From Diphasiastrum complanatum (taxonomy: Eukaryota; Streptophyta; Lycopodiopsida; Lycopodiales; Lycopodiaceae), in contig CM055094.1 in the NCBI GenBank assembly GCA_029204225.1, forward strand, positions 19,721,202 to 19,785,201: 64,000 bases of DNA, written 5' to 3'. Of the stretch, positions 2,172-63,006 are shown one piece after another; position 1 is the stretch's first letter; each line of letters opens with the position of its first letter. The notes below the pieces were generated by a model. The model was given only the letters and a program-made list of their open reading frames with translations. It was not told where the DNA came from and did no database searches. The position numbers were made by a program, and so were the translations under genes.

Positions 2172-2294
2172 AGACTCTGTTATTTTACACTTTACATTTG
2201 AACTCCTATTGTTCTTATTTTTGGAATCATGATTAGTTTTCTATTTTGTTGATGTTTTTAGCCATTAACAATACATGAATGTTCTATCTTCCAG

Positions 2295-2438
2295 TTTACA
2301 CTTCTTGAGTACACATCAAGCCAGGTGTACAGATTTAGACAAGAAATTATCTTGAACATACTAGCTAGGGCATGGCTTCAGCCTCCCATTGTTGATGATG
2401 GTGCAAAGGATGATGTAATTATCCTAAATAAAGATTAG
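2295..2438 (+). pseudogene. Last exon of a Ulp1-like protease gene (U copy 1)
   Basis: A pyrimidine-rich acceptor (tctatcttccag) is followed by 48 open codons, FTLLEYTSSQVYRFRQE..., ending in TAG at 2436-2438. The same exon follows the Cys-bearing exon in the copies at 20345-20686 (minus) and 21894-22183 (plus), which identifies it as the C-terminal tail of the Ulp1-like protein. Upstream of about 2210 the match to the intron stops and the sequence changes to the transposase remnant, so the catalytic exons are missing here. It is tail to tail with ORF-A (2809-3997, minus). Confidence 0.6.
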
Positions 2439-2808
2439 AACAAATACAGATAGCATAGAACAGAAATAGATTGCACATGTATAGAATTCATAGAAAAATA
2501 TACATTGATATATCAAATGCTGCTCCATTTTATGAATTGGGAGCACAAAATACATGTACTAATGCCCAACTTGGGCTTTCATTTATTGAATGAAAGAGTG
2601 TATACACAGATTTTTACTAAAGTTTATTTGAAGCTATTGTTCTCCCACAATGGTGATTGTTGTAGATAGATCTGCGGCAACACGTTATCAGCTCCTGTCT
2701 TTTTCGCATATGTGACATGACAAATATTAGTGAATGTGCAATTGTAAATGATGACATTTTCAGCTATTTTGTTTTAATTTGAAATGGCAATAAACATAAA
2801 GTACTTAC

Positions 2809-3997
2809 GAGTCTTCCGTGGATGATAAATCTGAAATATGTTGGTAGATTGGTTTGTAATAGCATGAGCTCTGTTCTGATAAAATCAAGCTTCCAATGCT
2901 CTTCCACCTCAACCATAGTCAAATATTCCTCATTGTAGATAATGCTTATCTCCATTCGGTTTGTGTAACCATTTAGTTCAAAGTCTTGATCAGTGGTAGC
3001 CATGTACCTTCAGTTTTCTTGTATCTCTGATGGCTAAATGTGAGACTGAGCATTTGCTTTCTGATATGATAACAAAAGATCATTGGAGACTTTTTACTCC
3101 TGCATTCTATGTCATTATTTGTTTTACTATCCCAGCCTTGATCCATGAGATCTGACAAAGTCTCATATGATAAATCCTTGCAAACAAATAAAGTTGGTGT
3201 CCACGAACACTAGCACTCGAGAAAAAATCAACAAATGTATGCAATGAGATAAACCAACTCAGGTGAACAATTTTCGAGCCTGTGCTTATCTTCATAGCAT
3301 TTTTAATATCAATGAGTAGCTTGCATCTTGAGGATTCAGAAACAATACTGTCAGGAGTAGGCCACTCATCACTTTGAAAACTAGGCAATGGAATTGCTTC
3401 GAGCTTGCCAAAACCTCCATCTGTTTGTGGTGTATATAAAGATTCATAAAAACAGATACCACAATCTGCAAGTTCCTTTGGACTTCTTCCTTTGTATTGT
3501 AGCTTTCCAACATGAGAGTGAATCACGTCTAATATTCCTGCAAGTGATTGTGCGGGCTCCCATTCACTTATGCATGATGGATATAAAGCTGAAAGAAAAA
3601 AACAATATTGAAGCATTTAAATCATAATCATCAGTAAAGGAAATCACCTATGATTGTTGTAGAGTGCATATGTTTTGATATACTTACAATTACATTTTTG
3701 ATGATCATGAGGATTGATATCATGTACTTTGATTTCTGAATGCATATATACATGTTGCACTAAGACTTCTGATATCGATTGACCTCCCGGGGTAGTCTTA
3801 AACTCCAAAATTTTTGCTTTTCAATAAGATTTGTAAGTCATTTTTGCTCTTTTCTTTTGTCAAAAATTGCCCTTTGATGATGGATGCATCAATACCCATG
3901 AGTTCTTCGTATATTTTGTTGGCTTCCAGTTATTAGCTTCATCTTTCTCATTGTAAAGAATCACAGAATCGATTGTAGATCTGGGTCTCCTCGCCAT
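2809..3997 (-). pseudogene. ORF-A of the U family, copy 1 (two exons, broken)
   Basis: Exon 1 runs 3997-3688 (MARRPRSTIDSVILYN...), with donor GTAAGT. Exon 2 runs 3588-2809, with acceptor ttctttcag and donor GTAAGTAC. The same exon borders recur in copies 2 and 4, which supports the gene model. Exon 1 encodes about 103 basic, Trp-containing residues (WKAKILEFKTTPGG). Exon 2 encodes about 260 residues including LYPSCISEWEPAQSLAG and a C-terminal YLTMVEVEEHWKLDF. Damage: TGG to TGA in YWKAKI near 3818, a 1-base deletion near 3200 and a missing G near 2993. I do not recognise a domain; the layout is compatible with a transposon accessory gene. It is convergent with the Ulp1 tail exon. Confidence 0.6.
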
Positions 3998-4460
3998 TGC
4001 TATTTTCAAAGCTTGGGCGCCAAAAATCTCTCTGATATGTTACTTGATTTTAATTTTTCGTATCACATTTAATCTAATGTGAATGCCAACATAGTCACAG
4101 TTACTGCGTATACCATATTTTATGTAACTATACATACTGTATTTCTATAACTGTAACTAGTATAGCTAGAAAATTTCATTATACTAACCAACATAGTCAA
4201 GTAAATTTAACTTGAGGTATTGACATTGGGCAGATTAGCACATGTCGGGCAGGAAGAAGAAACCAATGGGATAAGTCCATGCTGCCCGGACACAAATTCA
4301 AAGTTTTCTATATTGCATTTTTATTTCTCAGTTAATTTGAACTATGTTACGTAGATTTCAAATCTGTGCATTTTGATTGGGCCTAGTGACGGTCGAAACG
4401 AAAAAAAAAAAAAAAAAAGTATCTTTTTAAAGGGTCTTTTTTAATTTTGGAAATCCTCTA
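3998..4460. repeat. Upstream/terminal region shared by three U copies
   Basis: AT-rich sequence with runs such as gtaactatacatactgtatt, then gggcctagtgacggtcgaaac, a 19-base A tract and ctctaatgg. The same series occurs inverted at 18333-18777 and directly at 24871-25330, and in all three similarity ends near ctctaatgg. This suggests an element terminus or 5' flank of ORF-A containing its promoter. A more diverged stretch (tttgaaatctacgtaacgta) lies near 52845-52868. I did not find a matching inverted terminus at the Ulp1 end. Confidence 0.6.
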
Positions 4461-7457
4461 ATGGCGGCTTCGGTCTTTTTCCCATCCGATCTCATACTAC
4501 CATCCAGCTGGTATGTTGATTCATCTTGTCCTACAACATCGCCATCTCCATCCTTATCCCTTGGCCTTTGTTCGGAATTTCCTGCTTGGGCCTTGTATGA
4601 AGTGTTTTATAGTTGGTTCACTTTATCCAAGAACTTTTGCAGGTCCTTCGTCATTTTTTTCAATTTCTCCTCGTACTCTTGAATGACTTTTTCTTGTTTT
4701 TCGGCGGCTCGCTTGAAATTTATTGTGTTAGCCTCCCTCTCTTGGATAAGTCTCACATACTTCTCCATCCTTATTACTACGGCTTGAGGGGGTTGTATTT
4801 GAATGTCTTTCGGCTTCACTAGAGGGACATCAACCATCATTGCTCCAGATGACCCATCACGAACTTGGTCGATCAGCTCCTCTGATACTTAAGTTGATCT
4901 TGGACTTCATTTAGCTCTTTGGCTTGTTGCCCCATGGTGGATCATAGATCTTCTACTTGTATTTTCTCCTCCTCTTCCTCATCATCTTTCTTTTTTATTT
5001 GTCTTTTCTACTCCGTTATGATTTGCTCTTGCTGCTTGATTTTATTTTCCAACTCTTTGTGTTGGCTCATCAACCAATGCAAGTGATAGCTAGTCTCTGA
5101 TAAACTTAGTATGGAGCACTTGGCCGCCTTTGAGAGTTCCTTGGGAGGGACAAGGATGGGATATTTGTCAAAGGTGTGGTGTGGTGGGGTGGCGTTAGCC
5201 CAAGAAAGGTGCTTGAGAGAGTGGGGGTTGTAAGGGAAATGATTGAGAGATAGAAACGGTGGTAGTAGATGCGAGGGTAAGGGATGGAGTGGCAAGTTGG
5301 GTAGAGGTGGCAATGGTATCTGGTAAGGGTTGGCCTCCCCCAAGCTGATCTTCCTTCCTTTCGTCGATGTTGACATCCTCTTCTAACAAGTCTTTGGCAT
5401 CAAAATAGGCCGACATGTCCATAATGTGGAGCTGACGACCGGTGGAATAATCTGGGAATCCACAACTGTGTCATCCGCTATGGTGGTAACTGCAGCATCT
5501 ATGGCATGAGTTGGTGATGATTGTTGTTGTGCTGCCATATCTGATGAGGAGCTTGTGTCTTGTGATTCTTCTAACCCAAATGTATTCTGTGGAGATTGTG
5601 GCTGCTTTTTTGGATTTGGGCTTGCATAGGAGCTTCTCGCCTTCAGACTCCATATCATCTGAGTCTGTTTCATCTGATGAAGCATGACACTTTGCTTGTA
5701 TCTTGGTCCTTTGCTTGGATTGTTATGTTGGTGGTGGCTGGACCAGTGTGGTGGTGTCTTCATGTTGAGCAGAAGACTCTTCAGCAGAATGATCCTTCAC
5801 CTGTGACAAAGAGAACATGGGTGTCTTTCTTGATGTAAGGTTTGCTAGGCTGGCCTTTTGGTGCTTTGTAGTTGGCCCTTGTTGAGAGGAGGAACTCTTC
5901 CTCTTTTGAGAAGCCGGTTGCATGGAATCTATTGCATTAGTAGGCTTGGAAGTAGTGTTTGTCTTCTTGGCTGGTTCTGAGGGAGTCTCCCAAGATTTTA
6001 TCTGCTAGCATCAACTGGTCTCGAACTCGAGGTCGGTGGCTCAACTACTGCAAAGTGACATCTATTAGAAGATAGCCCAATAACGTGGAGGTTTGCTTGT
6101 TCTTGATATAGTCATGGAGGCAGTTGGAAGCAAACTGGGCCCAGTCATAAAGGTTCTCATTGTGTAGTCTAGAATCAGCCATCATGTGGAATAGTTTCAT
6201 GGGGATAGGCATGATCTTGGACCTATAGTACTGTGTATATTTCATCAGATAGGCGCATGCAGCAACTAAGGGCTTATCATTTATGAATTCGATACGGTAA
6301 CCATCTTTTGTTTCCATTTCTCCTCTGAGGGGTCTATGTATTTGAAGTATGCCTTTGCGAGGGTCCTACTGACTGTGTTTGGCCCCCAGGAAGCTAAATG
6401 TATTGAGGTCTAATATAAACAAAATTTTGGTTAGGAGGTAACATGAACTGGGAAGATCTGCTAGTGTAGTTATAAGATGCATAGGCAATATGCAATAGAA
6501 ATGGGCTCTGATAGCCACTGAAAGGAAGAAGTTGGAACTCTATGTGGCTCAGGAGTGGGTGTGCCTCCCGGTACCAAGTGTTCATCTCAGAGATATCAAG
6601 TCTTTCCATGGTGATGTCAAGTTTGTCTTGAGTTGGGTCATCAAAACTAGAAGATGTTGTGGCATACATGTTTTGGACTTGGTTGATGACTCTGTTGAAG
6701 GTTCGGCTCTAGTAACAGACAAGTGGAGTCTCGGCTCGGTCGACTGTAGAGGGCTTCGTATCGGTCGACTTTTGATGTCGACTTTTGATGGACTCGACTA
6801 GATCAACTTTGTATGTAGAGTATGGACACTCATCTTGGTCCACAGTGAATGCAGAGTATGGACACTCGGCTCGGTCCACAGTGAATGTAGAGTATGAGGG
6901 CTCTGTGAGCAGTGTATGTAGAGTATTGCTCGAGAGTGTATGGAGACTAGAAATTTGTGGAAAAATTTGGAGCAATGTCTCTCTGATATGATCTGAAAAC
7001 GATGATGTTTCTTTGCAATAATGTACTAGTAGCAAGCTTTCAACCCAAATCGATGTTGATTGTGTGGTTTTGACAAGCTTCAGTAGCACTACCCCTCAGC
7101 ATTTGCCTCGTGCTAGATGTGACGATTTTTGTGTAATGTAGCAAATCTCGGCAGCATAGGGTTTTTGAAAATGGATGATGATGGCGCTTTGGATCCGTGG
7201 TGGATGTATGTAGAGGTGTCCAAGGATGCGAAGGAATAATCAAGCATGGTCGTAGCAAATGATAGATCGCCACTAAAAGTTTGAAAATCAATCCTTTGGA
7301 GCTATAGCTTTTCAAAGCTTCTGAATTCCATTTTCATGCATGAAGAAGGAAGTGCCAGCATCAAATCTTCTCCCATCAGAGTTTGTGTTCATTATCTAAA
7401 AAGCATGCATGGCAGCATGGCAACAAAGCGTGATATTGTGATTTTTTGTAATGTTCT
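4455..7457 (-). pseudogene. X family, copy a (longest left-hand copy)
   Basis: Reading the minus strand from a shared 5' start (gaacattacaaaaaatcaca, 7457), the copy has: a leader; an N-terminal part with repeated (Y)S-T-V-D-R-A-E phrases (about 7000-6770); DISEMNTWYREAHPLLSHIE (about 6590-6530); a central block KLFHMMADSRLHNENLYDWAQFAS...KNKQTSTLLGYLLIDVTLQ (6317-6048); a Ser/Thr/Pro/Gln-rich stretch with ETDSDDMESEGEKLL; and a C-terminal Glu/Lys coiled coil (4840-4607, VIRMEKYVRLIQEREANT). Several frameshifts and stops break it. The same order recurs in at least five other copies in the window. I do not recognise the protein. It has no reverse transcriptase, integrase or zinc knuckle that I can see. 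Confidence 0.6.
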
Positions 7458-8460: not shown

Positions 8461-9224
8461 TTTGTAGATTTTTCTTCGCACTCCTTTGATATTTTCCTTG
8501 ATTCCTCTTCCAAATAATATATTCTTTGCATTGAATGTGCATTCCCATAGAGCATCAAATTCCCATAGTAACCCAAAAGGCCATTTTTACCATGACACAT
8601 ATAGATTATTAACTGACTCACCGAATGAAAATTTGGATGTTGCAATGAACATGGATCAATAAGATACAATGTTCTTGATGACCATAAATCTACATGCTTT
8701 AGCTTTTCCTCCCTGTATCGGACCATATCAGAAGTTGACAATTTGGGTTGCTTTGAATTTTTTGTCCTGAGCGGAGCATATTCTGATGACAGATCCACAT
8801 GAAGATGATAAAGCTTTATCATCAGTACAGTAGTATAGTAACAAACAACACAATGACAGTAACAAAGCTGGAGATGGTGCTAACTTCTCTGCTGGAGATA
8901 GAGATGGCGCTAAACACTTGTTTTTGACCCTGGAGATAGAGATGGCGTAGGCTTTTTTCAAAAATGTCACTCCTAATTCAAATTTTTGAGTGTTTCCAAC
9001 TAATGGGAGAGAATATTTCAGCATTTTGAAAATTATATTTTAACTATGGTTAAGCCGCAGTGAAGTTTGATGTGACTAAACTAAGGTGCATTCATTTACA
9101 TGGAAAGTAGTGCGGCCAGATGCGTAAAGAAGTTAGAAAATGATATTATAATTACTTTATAGTTATTTTCTCTCTCCTACATGGCATTTCTTATAGGGCC
9201 CTCTTTGGGCCCATATTTTCTCAA
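8461..9224 (-). other. Unassigned sequence between two X copies
   Basis: An open stretch of 170 codons runs 8822-8310 on the minus strand (SNLTKNLLLVSKI near its C-terminus). That phrase loosely recalls the segment after the copia protease active site, but no DSGA active-site motif precedes it, so I do not assign it. A second open stretch (9024-8728) is low-complexity. The rest holds nothing I can support. Confidence 0.25.
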
Positions 9225-12853: not shown

Positions 12854-15800
12854 TTAACTTGCTAGTTTTACAACACTACTTTGTTCCAACTTAAGAATGA
12901 TCTCCATCATCAGAATAGATCTCTTCTCAAGGATCCTAATATGTACAAAATAGGACACAACATAATTGATATAGATAATAGTGTCCATATAGGATGCTTC
13001 ACTATTTCTTACATCAATTTTACATAGAATCATAAAAATGGTACATGTAAAAGAACATAGAATCTCAATTAATGAATTCCTCCATGTATCCATCTCTGGT
13101 TTCTCTGTAAAATAGCAGCAAACAAGTTGTAAATGAAAGTGATCAACAAGTGTTTGCATGCCTCCTCCACATTTCACTATACATATAGTGAATGCAACAT
13201 GTATCTCCATGAATGAACTTCCATCACCACCTTGCCTTTGTAGATCTTCAATCCATGAAAGCCTTTGAGTGAATGAATGCCAAAAAGATGTGTTCCCTAC
13301 TCCATTTGAATGACCAAAACCTGAACTTGAAATACTTGAAGTACCTCCACAAGATTTGCACACAACGCTTGATCCTACAATGTCAACAAGTTGCCAATTT
13401 GCCAACACTAGAATACTAGATCTTGAACTTTGTTCAAAAGAAAACATATTGACCACTTCAATACCTTTCAAGATCTGAATGAATTCATGTACTTGATCAT
13501 ACAAACCAGCAATGATAACTATTCCATCTCCAAGATCCAAAGGATGCAAAACTATGGAACTAGTTTTATTGAAATTTGACAATTTCAACACATTGACATA
13601 ACAATGTTCATACATGAGATTAGGCAAGTGAGGTAGAGTAAGAAGACACTTCCTTGCAGCTCCAAAGACCTTACTTGAACCTTCAAGAACCTGTAAAAAC
13701 AGATCCAAAATGCCTTGACCATTTGTCTCTTCTTTGATGCTTTTCACTAGCTTCGAATTGCCACTTGTCTCTTGGTGTTGATGAAGCAATCCAAGATCAA
13801 CCTCTTGATCTTCCAATAAGACATCAAAGATCTTGCATATGTGAACATCTTCAGATCTGAAACTCTGAAGATATTCCCTCTCAAACACATGATTAAGATC
13901 CCACAAGATCTCATCAATGCTCAAATTTGACCCTTCACTATAGTTAGTGAAAACAATGCCACCATCATAAACCAAAAGATAGATTCCAACATTTCCATTT
14001 AACATGAAGTAGAGTAGGTGAAGATGAGTATCAAACCTAATCAAAACAGCCCTCTTGAGTTCATAACAAACCTCAATAAGCTCACCAATGATATCTCCCT
14101 TGCCTTGAAGAAGTTGCCACTTGAGTTGCTCCATGTAGTCTTCTTCAACCAACCTTTTGCCATCTTGACCATGAATGAACAATCCACCACAATCATAGAA
14201 TGCTTTGAGTTGATGAAGAGATGTTAGATCCATGCTTTGGATCTTCCCAAGAACCACTCTTCCATTGCCCTTTCCTTCACAAGACTCCCTCTTAATGCTA
14301 GCACCACAAAAGTTAGAAACCTCCCTCTTGATAGTTGCACCATAAGAAGTAGAAGACTCTTGAATATTAGAAGCCAAGAAAAGAATCCTTAGTACCTTCA
14401 ACATAAGAGTGATTGAAGTACTCTCTCTTTTCAAACATGAACTTCTACTCAATGATTTAGGTAATGAGTCATATGATAATGATTCTTCCTCACTATCGTT
14501 CATAAAAACATCATTCAAAGTACATCCTACTTTGAACACTTCACATACTTCTCTTCCTTTTGACTTGTGATCTCCCTCACCAAGTCTCATGATAGAAACC
14601 TTTGATCTACTCTTTTTATGAAGAAATGTGACACCACTTGTTGCACAAATGACTTTATCACAAAAAGATGTAAAAGAACCATTTCCTTCAAGCATGCTCA
14701 AAGCACCATCATCTTTTCCCACATGATTACATACATCAATATGAAAAGAATTAGAAGAACAACCATCTTCTTGCAAAGAATGACACTTAGCATCTCCATA
14801 TTTTTCCATATGAACAAACAAGTCATTAGCAACAATCACTTCCAAAGAAGAATCTTCATCAACTCCATTGATGAAGTTAGCTCCTTCCTTACCTTTTCCA
14901 TTTTTGCACTTGCCATCTAGCACCATTGAAGAACCACCAAGCCTTGGAAGTCCATGAGTAGAAGAGTACAAACATGATGCTAATTTATCTCCACATGACT
15001 CCATATGACTAGTAGGTAACACTAGTGCATCTTCAAGATCCAATGGATCCAAAAAATTGACCATAGATTCACCAAAGCTTGCCAAGTTAGCACAACAATT
15101 ATCATCTCCAAGAAGTACATTAGATCTCAACCTAGATCTAGCATTTTGTTTCTTATGGCATTCATTTGCAAAATGTCCTTTTATCCCACAATAAAAGCAC
15201 TTGAACTTTGACTTATTGTTCTTAGTAGAAGAGGAAGAGGAAGAGTGATCATCATGATCAAAGTTACCACCTTTGGACCATTTCCCTTTGCCTTTACCTT
15301 TGCCCTTGAATTTGCCTTTTGTGAAGAAAGCCTCTTCACCTCCACCTTGCAAGGATGCACCATCAAGCTTTGATTGCAACCTATGTTCTTCAGCCAATAA
15401 GATTTCTTGCAAGTCAACCACACTTGGCAAGACTCTTTGAATGGCAAAACTTTGCACAAGGTTAGCATGTTCATTTAGCAAACCATTCAACATAACTTGG
15501 ACTATTTCACCATCTTTTATGTTCTCATCAATGCATGCTAAATCATCACTTAGGGACTTAACTCTCAAGATAAATGCATGAGCACTTTCACCCTCTCTTT
15601 GCCTACTAGAAAATATTTGTCTCCTTAGGGTCAATACCCTAGATGTGGACTTTGATTCAAAGAGCTTCTTTAAGGCATTCCATGCCTCACTTGCACTTTG
15701 ACACTTTCCAACTTCCTTGAGAAGTTCATTTGTAACATTCATTTTAATGATATGAAGAGCCCTTTTGGCCTTCTTATCAAACCTTTGTTGCTCTTGAAGT

Positions 15801-15946
15801 GTGAGAGGTCTCTCTTCAATTTCTGCAACTATGTCCATGAGTTCATTCAACTCAAGTAAGGACTCCATCCTCACTTTCCAAGTAGAGTAGTTTGATGAAC
15901 TCAACCTTTCACTAGACTCTAGCATGATCCCACCATTGGAAGCCAT
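12854..15946 (-). CDS. gag: Gag-like protein with CCHC zinc knuckle and a long non-pol tail (1030 aa)
   Basis: Residues 1-200 are a copia-type gag: NYSTWKVRMESLLELNELMD near the N-terminus, then the K-F-E-S-K-STSRVLTLRRQIF signature and the LSDDLACIDENI...VMLNGLL helices. A Lys/Gly-rich stretch (KGKFKGKGKGKGK) precedes one zinc knuckle, CFYCGIKGHFANECHK, at about residues 246-261. Gag should coat the element RNA in cytoplasmic particles. The next 760 or so residues are open and acidic/Ser-rich, without any DSGA protease, integrase or RT motif. They include LVDIVGSSVVCKSCGGTSS (CxxC-like) and hydrophobic stretches. The ORF is intact and ends 13 bases before the 3' LTR. The tail is either a fused extra protein or captured sequence kept open; I do not recognise it. 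Confidence 0.85.
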   Translation of the reverse strand: MASNGGIMLESSERLSSSNYSTWKVRMESLLELNELMDIVAEIEERPLTLQEQQRFDKKAKRALHIIKMNVTNELLKEVGKCQSASEAWNALKKLFESKSTSRVLTLRRQIFSSRQREGESAHAFILRVKSLSDDLACIDENIKDGEIVQVMLNGLLNEHANLVQSFAIQRVLPSVVDLQEILLAEEHRLQSKLDGASLQGGGEEAFFTKGKFKGKGKGKGKWSKGGNFDHDDHSSSSSSTKNNKSKFKCFYCGIKGHFANECHKKQNARSRLRSNVLLGDDNCCANLASFGESMVNFLDPLDLEDALVLPTSHMESCGDKLASCLYSSTHGLPRLGGSSMVLDGKCKNGKGKEGANFINGVDEDSSLEVIVANDLFVHMEKYGDAKCHSLQEDGCSSNSFHIDVCNHVGKDDGALSMLEGNGSFTSFCDKVICATSGVTFLHKKSRSKVSIMRLGEGDHKSKGREVCEVFKVGCTLNDVFMNDSEEESLSYDSLPKSLSRSSCLKRESTSITLMLKVLRILFLASNIQESSTSYGATIKREVSNFCGASIKRESCEGKGNGRVVLGKIQSMDLTSLHQLKAFYDCGGLFIHGQDGKRLVEEDYMEQLKWQLLQGKGDIIGELIEVCYELKRAVLIRFDTHLHLLYFMLNGNVGIYLLVYDGGIVFTNYSEGSNLSIDEILWDLNHVFEREYLQSFRSEDVHICKIFDVLLEDQEVDLGLLHQHQETSGNSKLVKSIKEETNGQGILDLFLQVLEGSSKVFGAARKCLLTLPHLPNLMYEHCYVNVLKLSNFNKTSSIVLHPLDLGDGIVIIAGLYDQVHEFIQILKGIEVVNMFSFEQSSRSSILVLANWQLVDIVGSSVVCKSCGGTSSISSSGFGHSNGVGNTSFWHSFTQRLSWIEDLQRQGGDGSSFMEIHVAFTICIVKCGGGMQTLVDHFHLQLVCCYFTEKPEMDTWRNSLIEILCSFTCTIFMILCKIDVRNSEASYMDTIIYINYVVSYFVHIRILEKRSILMMEIILKLEQSSVVKLAS

Positions 15947-17102
15947 GATTCTAATGTTTCTTCAACTTTTAGGTTTTGTCCTAAAGCACTTAGCACTCAC
16001 TTTTCTCTCAACAAATGATAGATAAAGAGATCTATGAAGATTTAGGACCCTAAAACACTTCTATCTTGAACCTAGATGGTTTCCAAGCATAGAAAGGAAG
16101 ATTGAAACACATGCAACACTTTGCACACACTAAGAATGGATTACAAAATCAAACCAACCTGAACACACTCTTGCTTAAGCTCTCAAACTTTCCAGCAAGT
16201 GACCAAATCAAGTTATGGTGTGAAGAGTTACTTGCATTCTTAGAAAATACCCAAAACTAGGATGCCAAGATTACCTAGTAATGAACAAACTTGATCAACA
16301 TATGATCAACACACTAAGATATTGATTCAACCTGTAAAACCACATGTAAACCACACTTCTAAAATTTTATAAACTCCAGCAAGTGATAAATACAAGATTT
16401 AGAGGTGAATGAATGAGCACACTTAGTGAATCACAAGACTAGCTTCACTATCTTGTCAAATCTTGGTGTTTAGATGTAGATCTAAGATCACTTCACATGA
16501 GAATGTTCCTCAACCTGTTAAGAACCTGAAAACACACTTGCATAATGGTTAACACCTTCCAGCAAATGCTCCAATCAAATTACATAAGGAGAGTTACTTA
16601 CATGCTCAACAAAGTACACCAAAATTTATGCCAAAATTGATGACAATCTTTACAATATGCTCTTCACTATGGAGCTTGCAATATGTTCACCCAAAAAGGG
16701 GATCTTTCATCCAAATGGGAGCTTTGCTCAGCCTTTAGGAGAATTACAACTCACTCAAAAGAGCATTTGTCATCCACTTAAGGAGAAGTTTCATCCACTT
16801 AAGGAGAGTGTTCATCCAAGAATGGAGATTGTCAACAATAGGATTGAAAAGAACATTGTTAGTATTGAATATGCACAAGCCTCACAATCACAAATGATTA
16901 GGTGTTATGATCTGATCCAAAATAGTTTCTTTTCAGCCTCTGATCTTCAATAGACCTGAAATATGCTTTTGATCCACAAGTTCAACTCACAAAACAAAGG
17001 TTAGTAAGATTTGATCAACAAAGCAATGCAAAATCATGCTAGAACTTGATCAAACATCCAAATATCACCAAAAATGGAATACTTACTGTAAATAGAAGCC
17101 AA
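15947..17102 (-). other. Long leader between PBS and gag start
   Basis: About 1.16 kb of AT-rich transcribed leader with repeated phrases (catccacttaaggagaa near 16773-16815, and several aacctg(t/a)aaaac(c/a)ac blocks). The plus-strand open stretch at 16657-16953 is antisense to it and unsupported. The leader presumably holds packaging signals. Confidence 0.6.
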
Positions 17103-17764: not shown

Positions 17765-18332
17765 TTGGATTCACATTTACATCATGAAGCAAATAGTCTT
17801 GTAAGTTTCATGTTCAAGTGGATCAGAAGCTGGCTCCAATGGATGTTGAGATTAATATATCATGCTATCTCTAGCCTAATAGCCACACACTAGATGTTTG
17901 GATCCAGAAAATATTCACACAAAGGGACATCACACATCAATATTAATCTGCTTTCACCTTTTATTTGGTCGCTTACACATCTCTCCGTGCTTATGCGACA
18001 CAGGAAAAGCTCCCTTCAAACAAACCTGTGAATGTGCCTCTCCTGTGGCCTTAATTTTTCATGCACTGCCTTTGTCTTGGGCAACTAAAATGTGATACAA
18101 TTGTGACCTTTTCTCATGCTTATCTGTCTCCTATTCTTCGAAAAGTAAAATTTGATTGATGTAAGGGGGGTGTGTATAGTATAGACGGCTATGAGTGTAA
18201 AAGGGGCATGGATTATTCTTGACTTTCACATGAATGGAGGGTGGGCTTATTCAAGTCACCTAGAGAATGGTCACAAGTTCTCCTTTAAGGATGGGATGCC
18301 CTATCCATATGCATTAGAGGAGTTCTCAATAT
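17765..18332. repeat. Right remnant of the host repeat, then unassigned sequence
   Basis: 17765 to about 17935 is the reverse complement of 47255-47415 (cactagatgtttggatccag, agcaaatagtcttgtaag). It is the right half of the repeat split by the LTR element, beginning with the second ttgga. From about 17940 to 18332 I see only short open stretches and no recognised gene. Confidence 0.7.
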
Positions 18333-18777
18333 CAAAAAGACCCTTTGTAAAGATACTTTTATTTTTTTTCTTTAGTTTTGACCGTCACCAGGCCCAATCA
18401 AAATGCACAGATTTGAAATATACGTAACGTAGTTCAAATTAACTAAAAAATAAAAATGCAATATAGAAAACTTTGAAATTTGTGTCCGGGCAACATGGAC
18501 GTATCCCATTGGTTTCTTTTTCCTGCCCGACACATGCTAATTTGCCCGACGTCAATATCTCAAGTTAAATTTACTTTACTATGTTGGTTAGTATAATGAA
18601 ATTTTCTAACTATACTAGTTACAGTTATAGAAATATAGTATGTATAGTTACATAAAATATGGTATATGCAGTAATTGTGACTATGTTGGCATTCACATTA
18701 GATTAAATGTGATACGAAAAATTAAAATCAAGTAACATATCAGAGAGATTTTTGGGGCCCAAGCTTGGAAAATAGCA
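18333..18777. repeat. Terminal/5' region of U copy 2
   Basis: Inverted copy of the regions at 3998-4460 and 24871-25330: it starts with cattagaggagttctcaata, then a T-rich run, ccgtcaccaggcccaatc and the AT-rich block up to the ORF-A ATG. Contains cataaaatatgg and similar AT tracts that could serve as a promoter. Confidence 0.65.
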
Positions 18778-19975
18778 ATGGTGAGGAGACCCAGATCTAC
18801 AATCGATTCTGTGATTCTTTACAATGAGAAAGATGAAGCTGATAACTGGAAGCCAACAAAATATACGAAGAACTCATGGGTATTGCTGCATCCATCATCA
18901 AAGGGCAATTTTCGACAAAAGAAAAGAGCAAAAATGACTTACAAATCTTATTGGAAAGCAAAAATTTTGGAGTTTAAGACTACCCCGGGAGGTCAATCGA
19001 TATCAGAAGTCTTAGTGCAACATGTATATATGCATTCAGAAATCAAAGTACATGATATCAATCCTCATGATCATCAAAAATGTAATTTTAAGTATATCAA
19101 AACATATGCACTCTACAACAATCATAGGTGATTTTCTTTATTGATGCTCTTCAGATTATGATTTAAATGCTTCAACATTGTTTTTTTCTTTCAGATTTAT
19201 ATCCATCATGCATAAGTGAATGGGAGCCCGCACAATCACTTGCAGGAACATTAGACGTGATTCACTCTGATCCTGGAAAGCTACAATACAAAGGAAGAAG
19301 TCCAAAGGAACTTGCAGATTGTGGTATCTATTTTTATGAATCTTTATATACGCCACAAACAGATGGAGGTTTTGGCAAGCTCGAAGCAATTCCATTGCCT
19401 AGTTTTCAAAGTGATGAGTGGCCTACTCCTGACAGCATTGTTTCTTAATCCTCGAGATGCAAGCTACTCATTGATATTAAAATGATATGAAGATAAGCAC
19501 AGGCTCCAAAATTGTTCACCTAAGTTGGTTTATCTCATTGCATACATTTGTTGATTTTTTCTCGAGTGCTAGTGTTCGTAGGACACCAACTTTATTTGTT
19601 TGCAAGGATTTATCAGATGAGACTTTGTCAGATCTCATGGATCAAGGCTGGGATAGTAAAACAAATAATGACATAGAATGCAAGATTACAAAGTCCTCAA
19701 TGATCTTTCATTTTCATATCGAAAAGCAAATGCTCAGTCTCACATTTAGCTACCAGAGATACAGGAAAATTGAAGGTACATGGCTACCACTGGATCAAGA
19801 CTTTGAACTAAATGGTCACACAAACCGAATGGAGATAAGCATTATCTACAATGAGGAATATTTGACTATGGTTGAGGTGGAAGAGCACTGGAAGCTTGAT
19901 TTTTTCATAACAGAGCTCATGTTATTACAAACCAATCTACCGACATATTTCAGATTTATCATCAACGGAAGACTC
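18778..19975 (+). pseudogene. ORF-A of the U family, copy 2
   Basis: Exon 1 starts at the ATG (MVRRPRSTIDSVILYN...). Its donor is mutated: aattttaag here against aattgtaag in the other copies. Exon 2 runs 19195 (after ctttcag) to 19975 (before GTAAGT). It is 781 nt, as in copy 4. Damage: GAA to TAA after SIV-S near 19446 and an indel near 19485. This copy keeps the G at PLDQDFELNG that copies 1 and 4 have lost, so it shows the original frame there. The unknown protein has a basic N-terminal exon and a Trp/Asp/Glu-rich second exon. Convergent with the Ulp1 exons at 20345-20686. Confidence 0.6.
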
Positions 19976-20344
19976 GTAAGTACTTTATTTTTATTGCCAT
20001 TTCAAAATAGAACAAAATAGTAGAAAATGTCATCATTTACAATTGCACATTCACTAATATTTGCCATGTCACAGATGCGAAAAAGATAGGAGCTAATAAC
20101 GTGTTGCAAAGATCTACCTACAACAATCACCATTATGGGAGAACAATAGTTTCAAATAAACTTTAGTAAAAATCTATGTATACTCCCTTTCATTCAATAA
20201 ATGAAAGCTCAAGTTGGGCATCTATACATGTATTTTGTGCTCCCAAATTCATAAACTGGAGCAACATTTGATGTATCAATGTATATTTTTCTATGAAGTC
20301 TATACATGTATATTTGTTCTATGCTATCTATATTTTTTCAGATC

Positions 20345-20686
20345 TTAATTTAGTACAACTACATCATCCTTTGCATCGTCATCAATAACGGGAGGCTGAA
20401 GCCTTGCCTGAGCCAGTATAATCAGGATAATTTCTTGTCTAAATTTGTACACCTGGCTTGATGTGTACTCAGGAAGTGTAAACTGCAAAATAGAACATTC
20501 ATGTATTAGTAATGGCCAATAACATCACCAGAATAGAAAACTAATCATGATTCCAAAATAAGAATAAACAGAATTTATTACCTTAGAAATATCAACATCT
20601 TGTTGAAGGATGAACCACTCAAAAAATAGCTTGGCATTGTACAATGTGTACCACCCACAGCTGAATGAATCATTTTGATGGGGTGA
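20345..20686 (-). pseudogene. Ulp1-like protease, last two exons (U copy 2)
   Basis: The Cys exon runs 20686-20582, 35 codons bounded by tgcag and GTAATA: SPHQNDSFSCGWYTLY. The last exon runs 20482-20345 and ends in TAA. Q-x-ND-S-x-C-G is the oxyanion-Gln/catalytic-Cys signature of C48 (Ulp1/SENP) proteases, which process SUMO and are often carried by plant DNA transposons. The upstream exons with the catalytic His/Asp are absent because the sequence changes near 20700 to the H3-like frame on the other strand. It lies tail to tail with ORF-A, 370 bp away. Confidence 0.7.
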
Positions 20687-20699
20687 CTGCACAAGAAAT

Positions 20700-21487
20700 G
20701 ATCTTAGACAGCTGGTTAGATTCACACCCAGTGCTCTTCAGTGCCTTCAAGAGGCTGCTGAAAACTACATTAGCCTTTTTTTTTAGGATTCTTTTTTACT
20801 TGCCATTCATTCCAAGAGGGTTACCATAATGCCCAAGGATTTTCAGCTCCTGATGAGGATGAGGGATAGGTACTATAGGTTACATATATCTCAGCCTACT
20901 GCTCCTAGACCAACTCCTGTAGAAAGGACTGATCGTCCTAGGAAGCAGACAGCCCCCAAGCGTGCTACTAAGAAAGTGAAGCCTAACCCTTCAGATTCTG
21001 TGAAGCCTAACCTGGAATCCATTGTAGATATCGCTACTGTTGATAATGTTGTAAATATAGCTACCTCTATTTTGGATACCCCTTCAATTGTTGTAGATAC
21101 TACACATCCACCACCTCCTCCTCCAAATTTTTATACATATATAGATTCGGATGATTATTTTAAATTTGAGAAAGACATATCCGATTCTATAGATACTATT
21201 GGTACTCCTTTATGCTTTAGACTAGATGAAGTTAATTTTAGTATTAATTTTAGAGTTATAGATTGCTTGGATCTCAAAGTCTGACAGGCTCCTATCAGTG
21301 ATCCTGTGATAGAGTCCGGGCTTACACTCTTGCAATATGCCATTCCAAGACTTTTATCAAATGAGTTGCTGGTGCTGAGTAACTTTCTACTTCAGGCCTT
21401 CAAGGAGAACAATGACACATTGTCACAGTGTCTGACAAGTGGATTCACACCAGCAACAAAGTATCTGCTCATACCTTATCATACAAA
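20700..21487 (+). pseudogene. Histone H3 C-terminal half continuing in frame into the N-terminal part of a Ulp1-like protein
   Basis: In one frame: DLRQLVRF, then SALQCLQEAAENYISLF (20730-20780), then [18 protein letters not shown] and QLLMRMRDR (20787-20864). This matches the H3 alpha-2, loop 2 and alpha-3 core, whose usual form is [47 protein letters not shown], with the same loop-1 spacing as ordinary H3. A TAG (20784-20786) stands where H3 has Glu, next to an expanded T run. After the histone end the frame stays open: a Pro/Lys-rich linker (PRKQTAPKRATKK), a PPPPPP stretch and acidic sequence to a TGA at 21282. It is open again to about 21487, where a GTAAGA donor follows. Ulp1 catalytic exons follow on the same strand. 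The H3 N-terminal half is missing at the junction with U copy 2. Confidence 0.7.
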
Positions 21488-21536
21488 GTAAGATATATTA
21501 AATGCTTCTTGTTGTTTTATACATTAACATTGGAAT

Positions 21537-22183
21537 TGTCAGTGGAAATAGTTCCCAGAATTGCAGTTAAAGAAATTTCAATCTTATTTTGCATTGACCA
21601 CTGGAGTTTAAACCTGATCTCTATTAAGAGATCTGTAAATAATATTAATGCAGGTTTTTATGTCAAGATGAATTCAACAAGAAATTTGCATAAGGATCTA
21701 GATATATACCTTCCATATCTAAGTAAATATATTCCTACAGACACTGCCCATTCCGTGGAGTGGCAGATCGTCAGTTTGGAGGTAAACTCTGTCTTTCTTA
21801 GTAGCATTTTGAAATCAATATTCTAATGAAATATTTACAGTCTAAGTCATTCTGTTTCGTAATTGATTTCTTGTGTGCTGAATTATTTCGCAGTCACCCC
21901 AGCAAAATGATTCATTCAACTGTGGGTGGTACACATTATACAATGCCAAGTTGTTTTTAGAGTGGTTCAACCTTCAACAAGATGTTGATATTTCTAAGGT
22001 AATAAATTCTGTTTATTCTTATTTTGGATTCATGATTAGTTTTCTATTATGGTGATGTTTTTGGCCATTACTAATACATGAATGTTCTATTTTGCAGTTT
22101 ACACTTCCTGAGTACACATCAAGTAGGTGTACAAATTTAGACCAGAACTTATTCTGAGTATACTGGCTAGGGCAAGGCTTCAG
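21537..22183 (+). pseudogene. Ulp1/C48-type cysteine protease exons (U copy 3)
   Basis: The first exon (after ttgtcag, about 21543-21780, donor GTAAAC) encodes ISILFCIDHWSLNLIS, with the catalytic-His DHW at 21596-21604. It goes on to VKMNSTRNLHKDLDIYLPYL, where the usual Asp-Ser is Asn-Ser (21671-21676). The second exon (21894-21998, cag/GTAATA) encodes SPQQNDSFNCGWYTLY, with catalytic Cys at 21921-21923. The third (from 22098) encodes FTLPEYTSS and is cut at about 22183, where ORF-A sequence on the other strand begins. It belongs to the SUMO-protease fold. The missing Asp, an unclear frame across the first intron and the truncated tail mean it is not functional as it stands. Confidence 0.7.
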
Positions 22184-22640
22184 CTTAAATCTGAAATATG
22201 CTGGTAGATTGGTGTGTAATAGCATGGGTTCTGTTTTGATAAAATCAAGCTTCCAATGGCTCTTCCACCTTAACCATAGTCAAATATTTCTCATTGTAGA
22301 TAATGCTTATCTCCATTTGGTTTGTGTGAGCATTTAGTTCAAAGTCTTGATCTAATGGTAGTCGTGTACCTTCAATTTTCTTGTATCTCAGGTAGCTAAA
22401 TGTGAGACTGAGCATTTGCTTTTCGATATGATATCGAAAGATCATTGAGGACTTTTTAATCCTACATTCTATGTCATTATTTGTTTTACTATCCCAGCCT
22501 TGATCCATGAGATCTGACAAAGTCTCATCTGATAAATCCTTGCAAACAAATAAAGTTGGTGTCCTACGAACACTAGCACTATCAACAAATATATGCAATG
22601 AGATAAACCAACTTAGGTGAACAATTTTCGAGCTTGTGAT
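22184..22640 (-). pseudogene. ORF-A fragment (U copy 3)
   Basis: Covers the middle to C-terminal part of ORF-A exon 2, from SKIVHLSWFISLH (22640) to LLHTNLPAYFRF near 22185. It is fused head-on to the truncated Ulp1 tail at 22183, so the intergenic part and both 3' ends were deleted. On its upstream side it is joined in frame to retrotransposon leader sequence, giving a chimeric open stretch 22826-22245 of 193 codons that is probably accidental. Confidence 0.6.
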
Positions 22641-23236
22641 TATCTTCCATAGCTGAGAAGATGGAAAATTGCACTCTGAGTGATTCATGGCTGACCAAAT
22701 AGCATGTTCTGAGGTCACCCTATTACTTGCTACCCATAGCTTCAAAACGCTTTGCAAAGGATTGCTTGCTTGACTAACCGTAAACGGTTCTTCGAATTTT
22801 CCCAAAATTTGGCTTCTAGCTAACACTGAACTGCTCCACTCCCAGGCTCTGATACCATGTCAAGGATCTTACTGGCAATATAGTTAGCTAATTTGCAAGC
22901 AATCTATCATCAAACAGATAAGCAGTAAAGAGAGATCACACACCAACCCAAGAGAACACTTCTGAACTGTATTTATAAAAGAGACTGAAAGATATATATA
23001 CACAGTCTAATTTTTGTGGGGTACCGCTGCATGACAGTTTGGTCCCATTACGGAATGCGTGTCCCAGCTTACACTACGTGTACCGTCAAACTGGCACACA
23101 TGCATACTATCACAAAGACAGTAAAAAACTCGAAATCACTGCTGAACATGGAAAGTCATGAACTGTGAGAGAAACTCGGGCTTACTGGCTACGTGCAAAA
23201 TCATAAGCATGCTAGTAATTTGCTCTAGTAGGATCA
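22641..23236 (-). mobile_element. Fragment of a copia-type LTR element: LTR, PBS and leader
   Basis: On the minus strand an LTR-like segment (23236-22858, TG...CA ends, with a TATA-like tataaaagag on the plus strand near 22974) is followed at once by TGGTATCAGAGCCTGG (22857-22842), an iMet primer-binding site. About 200 bp of leader/5' coding sequence follow. No second LTR was found. The fragment sits between U copies 3 and 4. Confidence 0.6.
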
Positions 23237-23244
23237 AATTACTA

Positions 23245-23300
23245 GCCTCCCGTTGTTGATGATGGTGCAAAGGATGATGTAATTATACTAAATAAAGATT
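23245..23300 (+). pseudogene. End of the Ulp1-like last exon (U copy 4)
   Basis: The sequence cctcccgttgttgatgatgg through to aataaagattag matches the last 19 codons of the exon at 2295-2438. The rest of the protease gene is missing on the left, at the junction with the LTR fragment. Confidence 0.5.
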
Positions 23301-23672
23301 AGAACAAATACAGATAGCATAGAATAGAAATAGATTGCACATGTATAGAATTCATAAAAAAATATACATTGATATATCAAATGCTGCTCCATTTTATGAA
23401 TTGGGAGCACAAAACACATGTACTAATGCCCAACTTGGGCTTTCATTTATTGAATGAAAGAGTGTATACACAGATTTTTACTAAAGTTTATTTGAAGCTA
23501 TTGTTCTCCCACAATGGTGATTGTTGTAGGTAGATCTGCGGCAACATGTTATCAGCTCCTGTCTTTTTCGCATATGTGACATGACAAATATTAGTGAATG
23601 TGTAATTGTAAATGATGACATTTTCAGCTATTTTGTTTTAATTTGAAATGGCAATAAACATAAAGTACCTAC

Positions 23673-24870
23673 GAGTCTTCCGTTGATGATAAATCTGAAA
23701 TATGTTGGTAGATTGGTTTGTAATAGCATGAGCTCTGTTTTGATAAAATCAAGCTTCCGATGCTCTTCCACCTCAACCATAGTCAAATATTCCTCATTGT
23801 AGATAATGCTTATCTCCATTCGGTTTGTGTAACCATTTAGTTCAAAGTCTTGATCAGTGGTAGCCATGTACCTTCAGTTTTCTTGTATCTCTGATGGCTA
23901 AATGTGAGACTGAGCATTTGCTTTCTGATATGATAACAAAAGATCATTGGAGACTTTTTACTCCTGCATTCTATGTCATTATTTGTTTTACTATCCCAGC
24001 CTTGATCCATGAGATCTGACAAAGTCTCATATGATAAATCCTTGCAAACAAATAAAGTTGGTGTCCTACGAACACTAGCACTCGAGAAAAAATCAACAAA
24101 TGTATGCAATGAGATAAACCAACTCAGGTGAACAATTTTTGAGCCTGTGCTTATCTTCATAGCATTTTTAATATCAATGAGTAGCTTGCATCTCGAGGAT
24201 TCAGAAACAATACTGTCAGGAGTAGGCCACTCATCACTTTGAAAACTAGGCAATGGAATTGCTTCGAGCTTGCCAAAACCTCCATCTGTTTGTGGTGTAT
24301 ATAAAGATTCATAAAAATAGATACCACAATCTGCAAGTTCCTTTGGACTTCTTCCTTTGTATTGTAGCTTTCCAACATGAGAGTGAATCACGTCTAATAT
24401 TCCTGCAAGTGATTGTGCGGGCTCTGATTCACTTATGCATGATGGATATAAAGCTGAAAGAAAAAAACCATATTGAAGCATTTAAATCATAATCTGAAGA
24501 GCATCAGTAAAGGAAATCACCTATGATTGTTGTAGAGTGCATATGTTTTGATATACTTACAATTACATTTTTTATGATCATGAGGATTGATATCATGTAC
24601 TTTGATTTCTAAATGCATATATACATGTTGCACTAAGACTTCTGATATCGATTGACCTCCCGGGGTAGTCTTAAACTCCAAAATTTTTGCTTTCCAATAA
24701 GATTTGTAAGTCATTTTTGCTCTTTTCTTTTGTCAAAAATTGCCCTTTGATGATGGATGCAGCAATACCCATGAGTTCTTCGTATTTCTTGTTGGCTTCC
24801 AGTTATTAGCTTCATCTTTCTCATTGTAAAGAATCACAGAATCGATTGTAGATCTGGGTCTCCTCGCCAT
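23673..24870 (-). pseudogene. ORF-A of the U family, copy 4 (best preserved)
   Basis: Exon 1 runs 24870-24561 (donor GTAAGT). Exon 2 runs 24453-23673 (acceptor ctttcag, donor GTAGGT). Exon 1 is open throughout. Exon 2 is open from its start to near 23855, where the lost G seen also in copy 1 shifts the frame. Apart from that single base the roughly 360-codon gene looks intact. Exon 2 holds SKIVHLSWFISLHTFVDFFSSAS and YHIRKQMLSLTFSHQRYKK, but no domain I can name. Copies 1 and 4 are nearly identical and share the frameshift, so it arose before they were duplicated. A further exon downstream of GTAGGT is likely but not identified. Confidence 0.6.
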
Positions 24871-25330
24871 TGCTATTTTCAAAGCTTGGGTGCCAAAAAT
24901 CTCTCTGATATGTTACTTGATTTTAATTTTTCGTATCACATTTAATCTAATGTGAATGCCAACATAGTCACAGTTACTGCGTATACCATATTTTATGTAA
25001 CTATACATACTGTATTTCTATAACTATAACTAGTATAGCTAGAAAATTTCATTATACTAACCAACATAGTCAAGTAAATTTAACTTGAGGTATTGACGTC
25101 AGGCAGATTAGCACATGTCGGGCAACAAGAAGAAACCAATGGGATAAGTCCATGCTGCCCGGACACAAATTCAAAGTTTTCTATATTGCATTTTTATTTC
25201 TCAGTTAATTTTTGTTACATAGATTTCAAATCTGTGCATTTTGATTGGGCCTGGTGACGGTCGAAACTAAAGAAAAAAAATAAAAGTATCTTTACAAAGG
25301 GTCTTTTTGATATTGAGAACTACTCTAATG
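24871..25330. repeat. Terminal/5' region of U copy 4
   Basis: Direct counterpart of 3998-4460 and inverted counterpart of 18333-18777, ending near ctctaatgg with the same gggcctggtgacggtcgaaa and A-rich series. Confidence 0.65.
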
Positions 25331-40844: not shown

Positions 40845-41552
40845 TTGAACAGAATATGTGCAACCTAATTATTGTTGATTTTGATTTAATGAGCATTCAA
40901 TGTACATTTAATACATTAAATCAAATATCAACGAAGAGAACATATATATATACACAACGAGAAGAAGGTATATCTAGATCATAGATTATGAACTAAAGTG
41001 GACATTTCAAAAGCAGTGGAAGAATCGGAAGTTAATTTGCAAAAATTCTTGATGGATGTATGACATTCCTTCTGAGAAGAGAACGAGCCATCTATTATCG
41101 CAAAGTTGCAAGGATATGCTGATATGTTGTCTTCCGATCTCAAAGAAGGATCATTCTGAATTTGCTTTGGTGATTGATCAAGCATTTCATAGACGTACGT
41201 ATCTTTGAGGAATGGAGCTCTCCAACCGATCGACGCAATTAAATCTGGCTGAGAAGAGCTCCCGATCAAATTAGATGCCGTCGTTGGAACTGACATGTCC
41301 GCGTCTTTGCGTCCTACCAGAATCGAATTTATGATATCATGTGCCTCCAAATCTCTTCCGCATATAGATTTCGTAGTTTTTGATATCTTGGCCAAACGGA
41401 TTTTCTCAGCCGCCGATACTATGTTCATTTCTAGGTCCTGCTCCATCTTCCTAAGCCGATGTTGGAGATCAACAGTCCTTTTCTGAGACTCTTCAGCCTC
41501 CTGTAAATGACGAAAATAAGAGGCGAAATCAAAAGGACAAAGAACATCGATA

Positions 41553-41556
<4 letters not shown>
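40845..41556 (-). pseudogene. Unrecognised gene fragment with coiled-coil start (copy 1)
   Basis: On the minus strand an acceptor-like tcatttacag (41510-41501) is followed by EAEESQKRTVDLQHRLRKME, a charged coiled coil. Then come KIRLAKISKTTKSICGRD, a Ser/Thr-rich linker, GWRAPFLKDTYVYEM, and SEDNISAYPCNFAIIDGSF with SSQKECHTSIKNFCKL, ending near 41030. A longer relative lies at 51123-52662. Upstream of the acceptor the minus strand reads through FVLLISPLIF-like sequence into a (GA)n tract. The exon-like border and absence of transposon motifs suggest a host gene piece that was captured and multiplied. No known domain recognised. Confidence 0.4.

Positions 41557-41611
<55 letters not shown>
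41557..41611. repeat. (GA)n microsatellite, about 27 units
   Basis: 55 bp of GA at the junction between the unknown gene fragment and a copia gag fragment. The tract at 52699-52759 is at the equivalent place in the paralogue. Confidence 0.95.
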
Positions 41612-41613
<2 letters not shown>

Positions 41614-41614
41614 A

Positions 41615-42066
41615 AGAGAGACCAAGGTTTTCTTGACTTTGAGTTTGCTTCCTCTTGAAGCACTCCGAGGCATAGTGCCCCGTCTTGCCACAAAAGTAGC
41701 ATTTGATCTTCGACTTATCCTTCTTTGGCTTGCTCGAGCTTTGACTTCGTTCTTCTTGAATGCAACACCTTCGCCTTTGTATTTTCTCTTGATCTTGATG
41801 AAAAGAGCCTTGTCATCTCCATCATTGAGGGAGAGCTTCTCCATCCTTGACTTGATGTGAGTTCTCCTACTCTCCTCGACCATGAGGAATCCTTGGAGAT
41901 CTTCAAGTGAAGGCAACTTGCCCATGATTGTATAGCCTTGCACCAAGTTAGCAAAATCCACACTTAAACCATTCAAGATTGGTTGAACAAGTTCACTTTC
42001 CTTGATGGAATCTCCTCTGTAAGCAAGCTCTTTGTTTAAGTCCTTGACTCTCAGCACATATGGATA
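41615..42066 (-). pseudogene. gag: Copia gag fragment with zinc knuckle
   Basis: Minus strand: NPYVLRVKDLNKEL, LVQPILNGLS, LPSLEDLQGFLMVEES, MEKLSLNDGDDKALF, then after a frameshift near 41750 the zinc knuckle CYFCGKTGHYASECFKRK (about 41706-41650). Cut on the right where the foldback arm begins (catatggat at about 42064) and on the left by the (GA)n. Closely similar to 55940-56400. Confidence 0.75.
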
Positions 42067-42069
42067 TCC

Positions 42070-46811: not shown

Positions 46812-46914
46812 TAAGATCCTACCCGATCTTAAGCCAAATCATATCTATTAATGTTAACAAGAATGGAAACTAGCTTGAATTTGCATAAAAATTGGATGTA
46901 GAACTGCCTCCTCC

Positions 46915-62796: not shown

Positions 62797-63006
62797 TGCA
62801 AATCATGTTCAAATAGGTTTTAAAGAAGATCATGAAATTCTATTTTGGATTTTTAGTAAAACAGAATATCCAGAGATAATTAAGAATCATATGAGCGACA
62901 CACCACTCAATGTTCCTAGAATATGTGATTTTAAGGTGGAATGGCATTTGGTTCACACACCAAGAGCTACAGGGAGTGAAAATCCAAAACTTAGCGAAAT
63001 GTTTTA
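62797..63006 (+). pseudogene. Transposase-like fragment (second copy)
   Basis: The plus strand encodes GFKEDHEILFWIFSKTEYPE and IIKNHM..TPLNVP..CDFKVEWHL. This matches the minus-strand transposase at 1564-1430 (KEDHDILSWIFSRTSYP, LNVPGVRDFNVEWHI) over about 45 residues. Past EWHL the SDLK and CxxC parts are replaced by unrelated codons to a TAA near 63006. It sits immediately upstream of the ACGT array that precedes the H3-like ORF. Confidence 0.6.

Follow-up and report, generated by a model that had tools for sequence, protein, structure and literature searches.

A transposon-borne fusion of histone H3 to a Ulp1-type protease in Diphasiastrum complanatum

Introduction

VANC proteins of Vandal transposons counter the silencing of their own elements (PMC5735166), and some VANC genes carry a Ulp1 domain, as stated in the passages of PMC13317346 that concern them. 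Ulp1 proteases are also borne by other DNA transposons, in the transposases of Ginger1 and Mutator elements (PMC2836005, section on these transposases). Transposons with genes for TET/JBP dioxygenases or SET methyltransferases carry chromatin-modifying cargo, according to the relevant part of PMC12730594. Here we describe a gene in which the second half of a histone H3 fold is followed in frame by a linker and a Ulp1-type protease of the C48 family. It lies in a stretch of 64,000 nucleotides of the Diphasiastrum complanatum genome (assembly GCA_029204225.1, contig CM055094.1, positions 19,721,202 to 19,785,201 of the forward strand), hereafter the window, and is a broken copy of a gene from a four-gene transposon family with terminal inverted repeats (TIRs). 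A preliminary description of the window, made from its sequence alone, had proposed such an element-borne fusion of H3 to a protease for SUMO (small ubiquitin-like modifier).

Results

Translation of positions 20700–21491 on the plus strand of the window gives the second half of an H3 fold, a linker rich in lysine and proline, and the start of a protease region. The H3 part (20700–20867) matches the Pfam Histone model (E 2.1e-12; 47.8 bits, cut-off 26.4; X written at the in-frame stop) and is 55% identical to plant H3 over 56 residues, which upholds the H3 core recognised in the preliminary description. The linker (20868–21284, plus strand) stays open in the H3 frame up to a TGA at 21282–21284, and the remainder of this first exon, exon A, forms the N-terminal part of the protease region (21285–21487) and runs to the intron donor. 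Three more exons follow on the same strand: exon 2 (21595–21781, its start set by comparison with other copies) with the motifs DHW and KMNS, exon 3 (21894–21998) with QQNDSFNCGW, and exon 4 (22098–22157), which has its first stop at 22155–22157 and is out of frame with the open copies described below. From the DHW motif on, the protease part matches Peptidase_C48 (E 1.3e-6; 28.8 bits, cut-off 20.7), and the Ulp1-type protease previously noted on this strand is thereby recovered. The same holds for the two interruptions of the frame, a TAG within the H3 part (20784–20786) and the TGA of the linker, which are indeed the only ones before the donor. Between the end of H3 and the donor (20880–21487) the H3 frame has one stop, compared with 14.5 expected and with 15 and 21 in the other two frames; none of 5000 dinucleotide shuffles reached so low a number.

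Our initial splice model for the window took exon A to 21487 and added three exons with GT-AG introns, placing the acceptor of intron 1 at 21558/21559. Of 21 aligned rows, 20 have GT as the donor of this intron. An AG at 21594/21595, just before DHW, is found in 16 of the 20 other copies and in five of six open copies, and the acceptors of two diverged relatives (loci L052 and L053) fall at this site; the window copy and its sister L009 lack this AG. Judged from the aligned copies, the intron 1 acceptor is most likely 21594/21595. The site 21558/21559 (AG in 16 of 21 rows) proved the weaker candidate when the open copies were checked.

Base 20700, where the feature of the preliminary description begins, is no gene start; it turned out to be the junction between two copies of one element, c1 and c2, of which c1 is an inverted sister copy. 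The first half of the H3 fold is missing from the window because of this junction. The junction recurs on a second contig, at L009, which is co-linear with window positions 17765–21647 at 98.2% identity; it is therefore real DNA and not an assembly error.

The fusion is a multicopy gene elsewhere in the genome. Searches covered the best-scoring matches in this one genome of 1.74 Gb. With the 801 bases of window DNA at 20700–21500 as query, 40 matches were scored out of 1716 first-look candidates (candidates are not copies); each covers at least 726 of the 801 bases, and H3, linker and protease start are adjacent in all 40. With the protein of the open copy L039 as query, 119 matches were scored out of 9637 candidates, the query's own place and a few duplicates being counted. 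They are 78–100% identical to L039, and every one spans the H3 fold and the linker and reaches into the protease start. Half of the 40 DNA-match places were then taken with wide flanks (20 copies, with four pairs of near-duplicates). All 20 have H3 next to the linker, L009 and L022 retaining just the second half of the fold. In 18 of them C48 comes next on the same strand, in part only in L014 and some others. The two exceptions are L009, rearranged like the window, and L027, where C48 was looked for in the flanked copy and not found. Adjacency of H3 and C48 in copies elsewhere in the genome bears out the proposed element-borne, in-frame fusion and rules out a chance junction of two pseudogenes, the alternative that the preliminary description had singled out for checking. 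A search for homologous proteins gave 16 matches, none covering more than 15% of the query, and those examined match the H3 part; no relatives of the fusion were found among IMG/VR viral contigs.

Copies free of stops, which the preliminary description had suggested looking for, were also found. Exon A has no stop in 28 of the 119 scored rows, a share that is not a genome estimate because it comes from best-scoring matches and counts duplicates and the query's own place. Six of the protein-match places were read as open copies. Three of them (L039, L042 and L045) have no stop through exons 2 and 3 and about the first 28 codons of exon 4, these reads ending before the end of exon 4. The C48 exons of L044 are broken; in L043 and L046 a stop interrupts exon 2, exons 3 and 4 not being found within their aligned stretch.

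Selection was examined as the pairwise ratio of nonsynonymous to synonymous substitution rates (dN/dS). A first set contained 13 of 21 aligned copies, mostly broken, after four near-duplicates, the window, L009, L022 and L027 had been left out; its ratio for H3 was 0.35. In the six copies with an open exon A, H3 had a dN/dS of 0.13 (dS 0.50); the tail stood at 0.33, the linker at 0.46 and the protease start at 0.32, and exons 2–3 of C48 from DHW on gave 0.29 (0.33 with the acceptor at 21558/21559). These substitution ratios show purifying selection on both the H3 and the protease parts of the fusion. Seven histones of a related family with an unfused H3, family B, gave 0.30.

The C48 exons of L039 score 33.6 bits against the Peptidase_C48 cut-off, and the pieces of L052 fall just under it at 20.6. 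The motifs with the catalytic His, Gln and Cys are largely kept, DHW being present in 13 of 17 rows, QQNDSF in 9 of 17 and (S/N)CGWY in 12 of 17, with the rest mutated or missing; by tblastn, HW is found in L052 and SCGW in both L052 and L053. On the histone side, L039, L052 and L053 reach 88.0, 87.1 and 86.5 bits with the Pfam Histone model (gathering threshold 26.4), and the best 60 PDB relatives of one family A (window family) and one family B histone are all H3 proteins.

Upstream of the fold lies a short H3-like tail. Of the 20 flanked copies, 17 have a readable tail of the type MDRRKQTRRDFF; L027 was excluded from the tail counts, its tail being too changed to align. Residues R2, K4, Q5, T6 and R8 of the H3 tail are unchanged in five aligned fusions. 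The tail start ARTKQTAR is exact in L052 and in three of five family B loci, and in family A the A1 position is D. Among the 17 readable family A tails, K4 is R in four and Q5 is a stop in three. The K9 position holds no lysine in these tails (D in 16, E in one); the six open copies have D (five) or N (one) there, L052 and L053 have L, and all five family B loci have D. Family B has a second Met four residues upstream, and its protein may therefore begin before the tail.

The transposon histones are 47–54% identical to maize H3 and 41–53% identical to three CENH3 or CENH3-like rows. A recent capture of a host H3 was ruled out because they are only about half identical to H3. In an unrooted 15-row tree from 98 alignment columns, in which two of the three CENH3 rows are provisional sequences, a branch with support 76/79 sets all transposon rows apart, and one with 83/84 those fused to C48, both below the 95/80 mark. 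Judged by its divergence and substitution pattern, the fusion is an old gene under purifying selection and no recent capture. An Arabidopsis CENH3 query returned host H3 and transposon histones, and a host CENH3 was not identified with it. As a separate observation, host H3 occupies 13 uninterrupted places on contigs C5, C11 and C23, nine of them on C11, at 97–99% identity to maize H3.

The architecture extends beyond the window family. L052 and L053 have the same order of H3 tail, H3 fold, linker and C48, at 34–35% identity to L039 in exon A, and tblastn located C48 exons downstream in both (37% and 50% identity in L052, 43% in L053). On these alignments the protease fusion is present in at least three diverged lineages of the transposon group, namely the window family, L052 and L053. 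In family B (L032–L038 and L054) the H3 fold is followed immediately by a stop in six of eight copies, L032 and L054 extending briefly. The five family B loci in which the upstream part was read carry a long Gln/Pro-rich insert, with runs of both residues, between tail and fold; a single stop interrupts the open reading frame at L036, and L054 differs in its N-terminal part. At one family B locus, of which about 14 kb was read, there are homologues of the element's genes X (35% identity, E 1e-37) and Y (44%, E 4e-17) and a weak homologue of gene Z (23%, E 5e-4), genes that are described below. Since an unfused H3 occurs in family B together with homologues of X, Y and Z, H3 is a resident part of the transposon group. 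An unfused H3 belonging to a second transposon family, with the tail MARTKQTARD or close to it, was noted at L032–L041, L047–L050 and L054.

The ends of the element were recognised in flanked copies. L027 has 35-bp inverted repeats, CATTAGAGGAGTTCTCAATATCAAAAAGACCCTTT, at both ends, about 8.1 kb apart, and those of L013, with two or three mismatches, are 6.55 kb apart; no target-site duplication was seen at either locus. Because TIRs were found at both element ends, we dropped a Helitron or LINE (long interspersed nuclear element) reading, which the shared, fixed right ends had suggested. From left to right the element carries gene Y (plus strand), gene Z (minus), the H3–linker–C48 gene (plus) and gene X (minus). 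The exon pieces of X, Y and Z that were scanned gave no Pfam match above cut-off, and in those of gene Y no Mutator transposase domain was matched above cut-off; one gene Y piece tested against PDB chains gave no match (best E 0.76). By its position and recurrence, gene Y is a candidate transposase. Gene X encodes a conserved protein that is present in four copies in the window and has four relatives, 57–95% identical, in public contigs. A first guess that it is a DUF247-like protein had no Pfam match, and its predicted fold was not used, with a mean pLDDT (predicted local distance difference test) of 42.5. The transposon cluster of the preliminary description stands, as four broken copies of one element; its placing among Mutator/CACTA-type elements is not supported, no transposase domain having been recognised in the pieces scanned.

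In the window, the region around the fusion gene is a nest of inverted copies, c1 to c4. Copy c1 (18312–20699, minus) consists of a TIR, gene X and the C-terminal C48 exons. Its 35-bp TIR (18312–18346, listed on the plus strand) has no mismatch to that of L010, its gene X lies at 18778–19975 on the plus strand of the window, and its C48 exons at 20692–20429 on the minus strand. Copy c2, from 20700 to about 22650, holds the H3–linker–C48 gene and, convergent with it, the C-terminal part of gene X (22187–22646, minus). Copy c3 (23244–25330, minus) has gene X at 23673–24870 and the right TIR at 25296–25330. Copy c4 (2209–4463, minus) is 97% identical to c3 and comprises C48 exon 4 on the plus strand, gene X at 3997–2809 and the right end, with a TIR at 4429–4463; a fragment of gene Y, the candidate transposase of the same family, adjoins it (746–2213, minus). 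The sequence between c2 and c3 (22653–23243) looks like a piece of a long terminal repeat (LTR) retrotransposon, with a TGGTATCAGAGC-type site that we take to be the tRNA-Met primer site next to an LTR.

Other mobile sequences are scattered over the window. Fragments at 8475–8840 and 62819–62953 are 40% and 62% identical to gene Y, and further families of the same transposon group therefore lie within the window. Copia-type gag/pol pieces (Retrotran_gag_2, Pol_BBD) were seen at 12854–15961, 41431–42165 (below the Pfam cut-off), 46164–46838 and 55903–56487. A weak reverse transcriptase match at 58016–58453 (RVT_1, E 0.038, below cut-off) is possibly Penelope-like.

Discussion

An intact fusion gene would encode one protein with a short H3-like tail, an H3 histone fold, a linker and a Ulp1-type cysteine protease of the C48 family. 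We propose that the H3 fold would pair with H4 and enter nucleosomes, probably those on the element's own DNA or close to it. The tail would present K4, and with no K9 in it this subunit could not take H3K9 methylation. The tethered protease would strip SUMO from silencing factors at the element's chromatin, and the outcome would be an anti-silencing histone that keeps the element expressed and mobile. That a transposon-encoded histone carries a SUMO protease into chromatin against silencing is, in our judgment, evenly balanced between right and wrong; the reading rests on the tail that kept K4 and lost K9, and on the Ulp1-bearing anti-silencing genes of Vandal elements. A wider claim can be made more tentatively, and we regard it as rather doubtful: this group of DNA transposons may build its own chromatin by laying K9-less, K4-keeping H3 variants on its own DNA, with a SUMO protease in several families, and would thus be marked active and be unmarkable as silent.

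Several observations weigh against an anti-silencing histone–protease. The acid position of the catalytic site is changed from Asp to Asn (KMNS) in 14 of 17 rows and also in L052 and L053, and the activity may be lower or changed as a result. Papain uses Asn, and by that analogy the constant Asn would be compatible with activity. Family B histones carry no fused protease, and no C48 was detected in the one family B locus of which about 14 kb was read. The tail is not uniformly kept, Q5 being H in the open copy L044 and R2 being W or K in two of five family B loci. The plant CENH3 tail also lacks K9, and its loss need not be an anti-silencing trait. Neither L052 nor L053 is an intact copy, because each has a frame break, in exon 2 of the former and near the end of exon A in the latter. 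In the 13 mostly broken copies the linker and C48 had dN/dS of 0.81 and 0.68, the latter figure including 12 codons that are probably intron. Searches of predicted proteins, which were word-based and limited by length, found no protein with the linker. Stops are present in 91 of the 119 scored rows. Of the 17 copies counted, 10 share the TAG inside H3 and seven have a sense codon there, a pattern suggesting that many copies with a defective fusion gene have spread, driven in trans.

These stops are also what would be expected if the fusion were a functionless passenger, an old fragment of a host gene riding on a transposon. The open copies speak otherwise, with dN/dS of 0.13–0.33 for H3, tail and protease at dS of up to 0.50, and the same architecture recurs at 34–35% identity; we consider a passenger very improbable. 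Still further down we place a chance joining of two unrelated pseudogenes or a misassembly of the window, for which the probability is negligible. The join with the inverted sister copy at 20700 is a real local rearrangement and lends that idea what force it has, but elsewhere in the genome copies also have H3 next to C48, and the 20700 junction is found again at 98% on another contig.

Two further explanations grant the protein a function. The H3 part could be a CENH3 mimic that guides the element, or the complex that transposes it, to centromeric chromatin, where the protease would clear SUMO. Most transposon rows have LLIP in helix 1 as in plant CENH3, loop 1 is one residue longer in family A and longer still in L053, RW precedes helix 2 in L052 and L053, and a branch with support 98/97 places the transposon histones and the CENH3 rows together against four H3 rows. 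That branch is unrooted, however, and only sets off H3, with two of the three CENH3 rows provisional; the CENH3 rows do not form one clade in the tree, the scored copies are scattered over many contigs and positions, and the Arabidopsis query identified no host CENH3 gene. We hold a centromeric role to be unlikely. A similarly low probability is given to a decoy, in which the histone would soak up H3K4 readers, H4 or H3 chaperones and thereby upset the host's silencing without entering nucleosomes, and the protease would act on the captured partner. Retention of R2, K4, Q5, T6 and R8 with loss of the remaining tail would fit it, as would the bulky C-terminal extension on the H3 fold; yet the whole fold, including the DNA-contact stretch KRVT, is strongly constrained (dN/dS 0.13), seemingly beyond what a decoy needs.

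If the anti-silencing role is true, a selfish element would fight silencing by swapping out the histone that takes the silencing mark, and would deliver a SUMO protease alongside. The family also offers a natural set of selected H3 variants, with K4 kept and K9 lost, in which one can ask what an H3 tail needs. We found no report of a transposon-encoded core histone or of an H3–C48 fusion among open-licence PubMed Central papers. Histones are encoded by other selfish elements, as in the H4 of bracoviruses and the histone doublets of marseilleviruses, but these are viruses and not transposons, and to our knowledge none of their histones is fused to a protease. The transposon histones resemble CENH3/CENP-A and other H3 variants in their divergent fold, replaced tail and the LLIP of plant CENH3 rows. 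Unlike CENH3/CENP-A, they are multicopy and transposon-borne, and here fused to a protease. Compared with the KIU and VANC genes of the Mutator-type Vandal elements, the fusion is likewise an accessory gene of a plant transposon with a Ulp1 domain, but it has a histone part, which the passages on KIU and VANC in PMC13317346 do not mention. The element itself differs from Vandal in its 35-bp TIRs, in genes X, Y and Z that stay below Pfam cut-offs, and in that no Mutator transposase domain was found. As in Ginger1 and the Mutator transposases, a Ulp1 protease sits on a DNA transposon; in Ginger1, as the section on it describes, the protease is the C-terminus of the transposase (PMC2836005), whereas here it is the C-terminus of a histone. 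Finally, the element shares chromatin-modifying cargo with the transposons that bear TET/JBP or SET genes, and where those carry enzymes, in the account given by the relevant part of PMC12730594, this one carries a putative subunit of chromatin.
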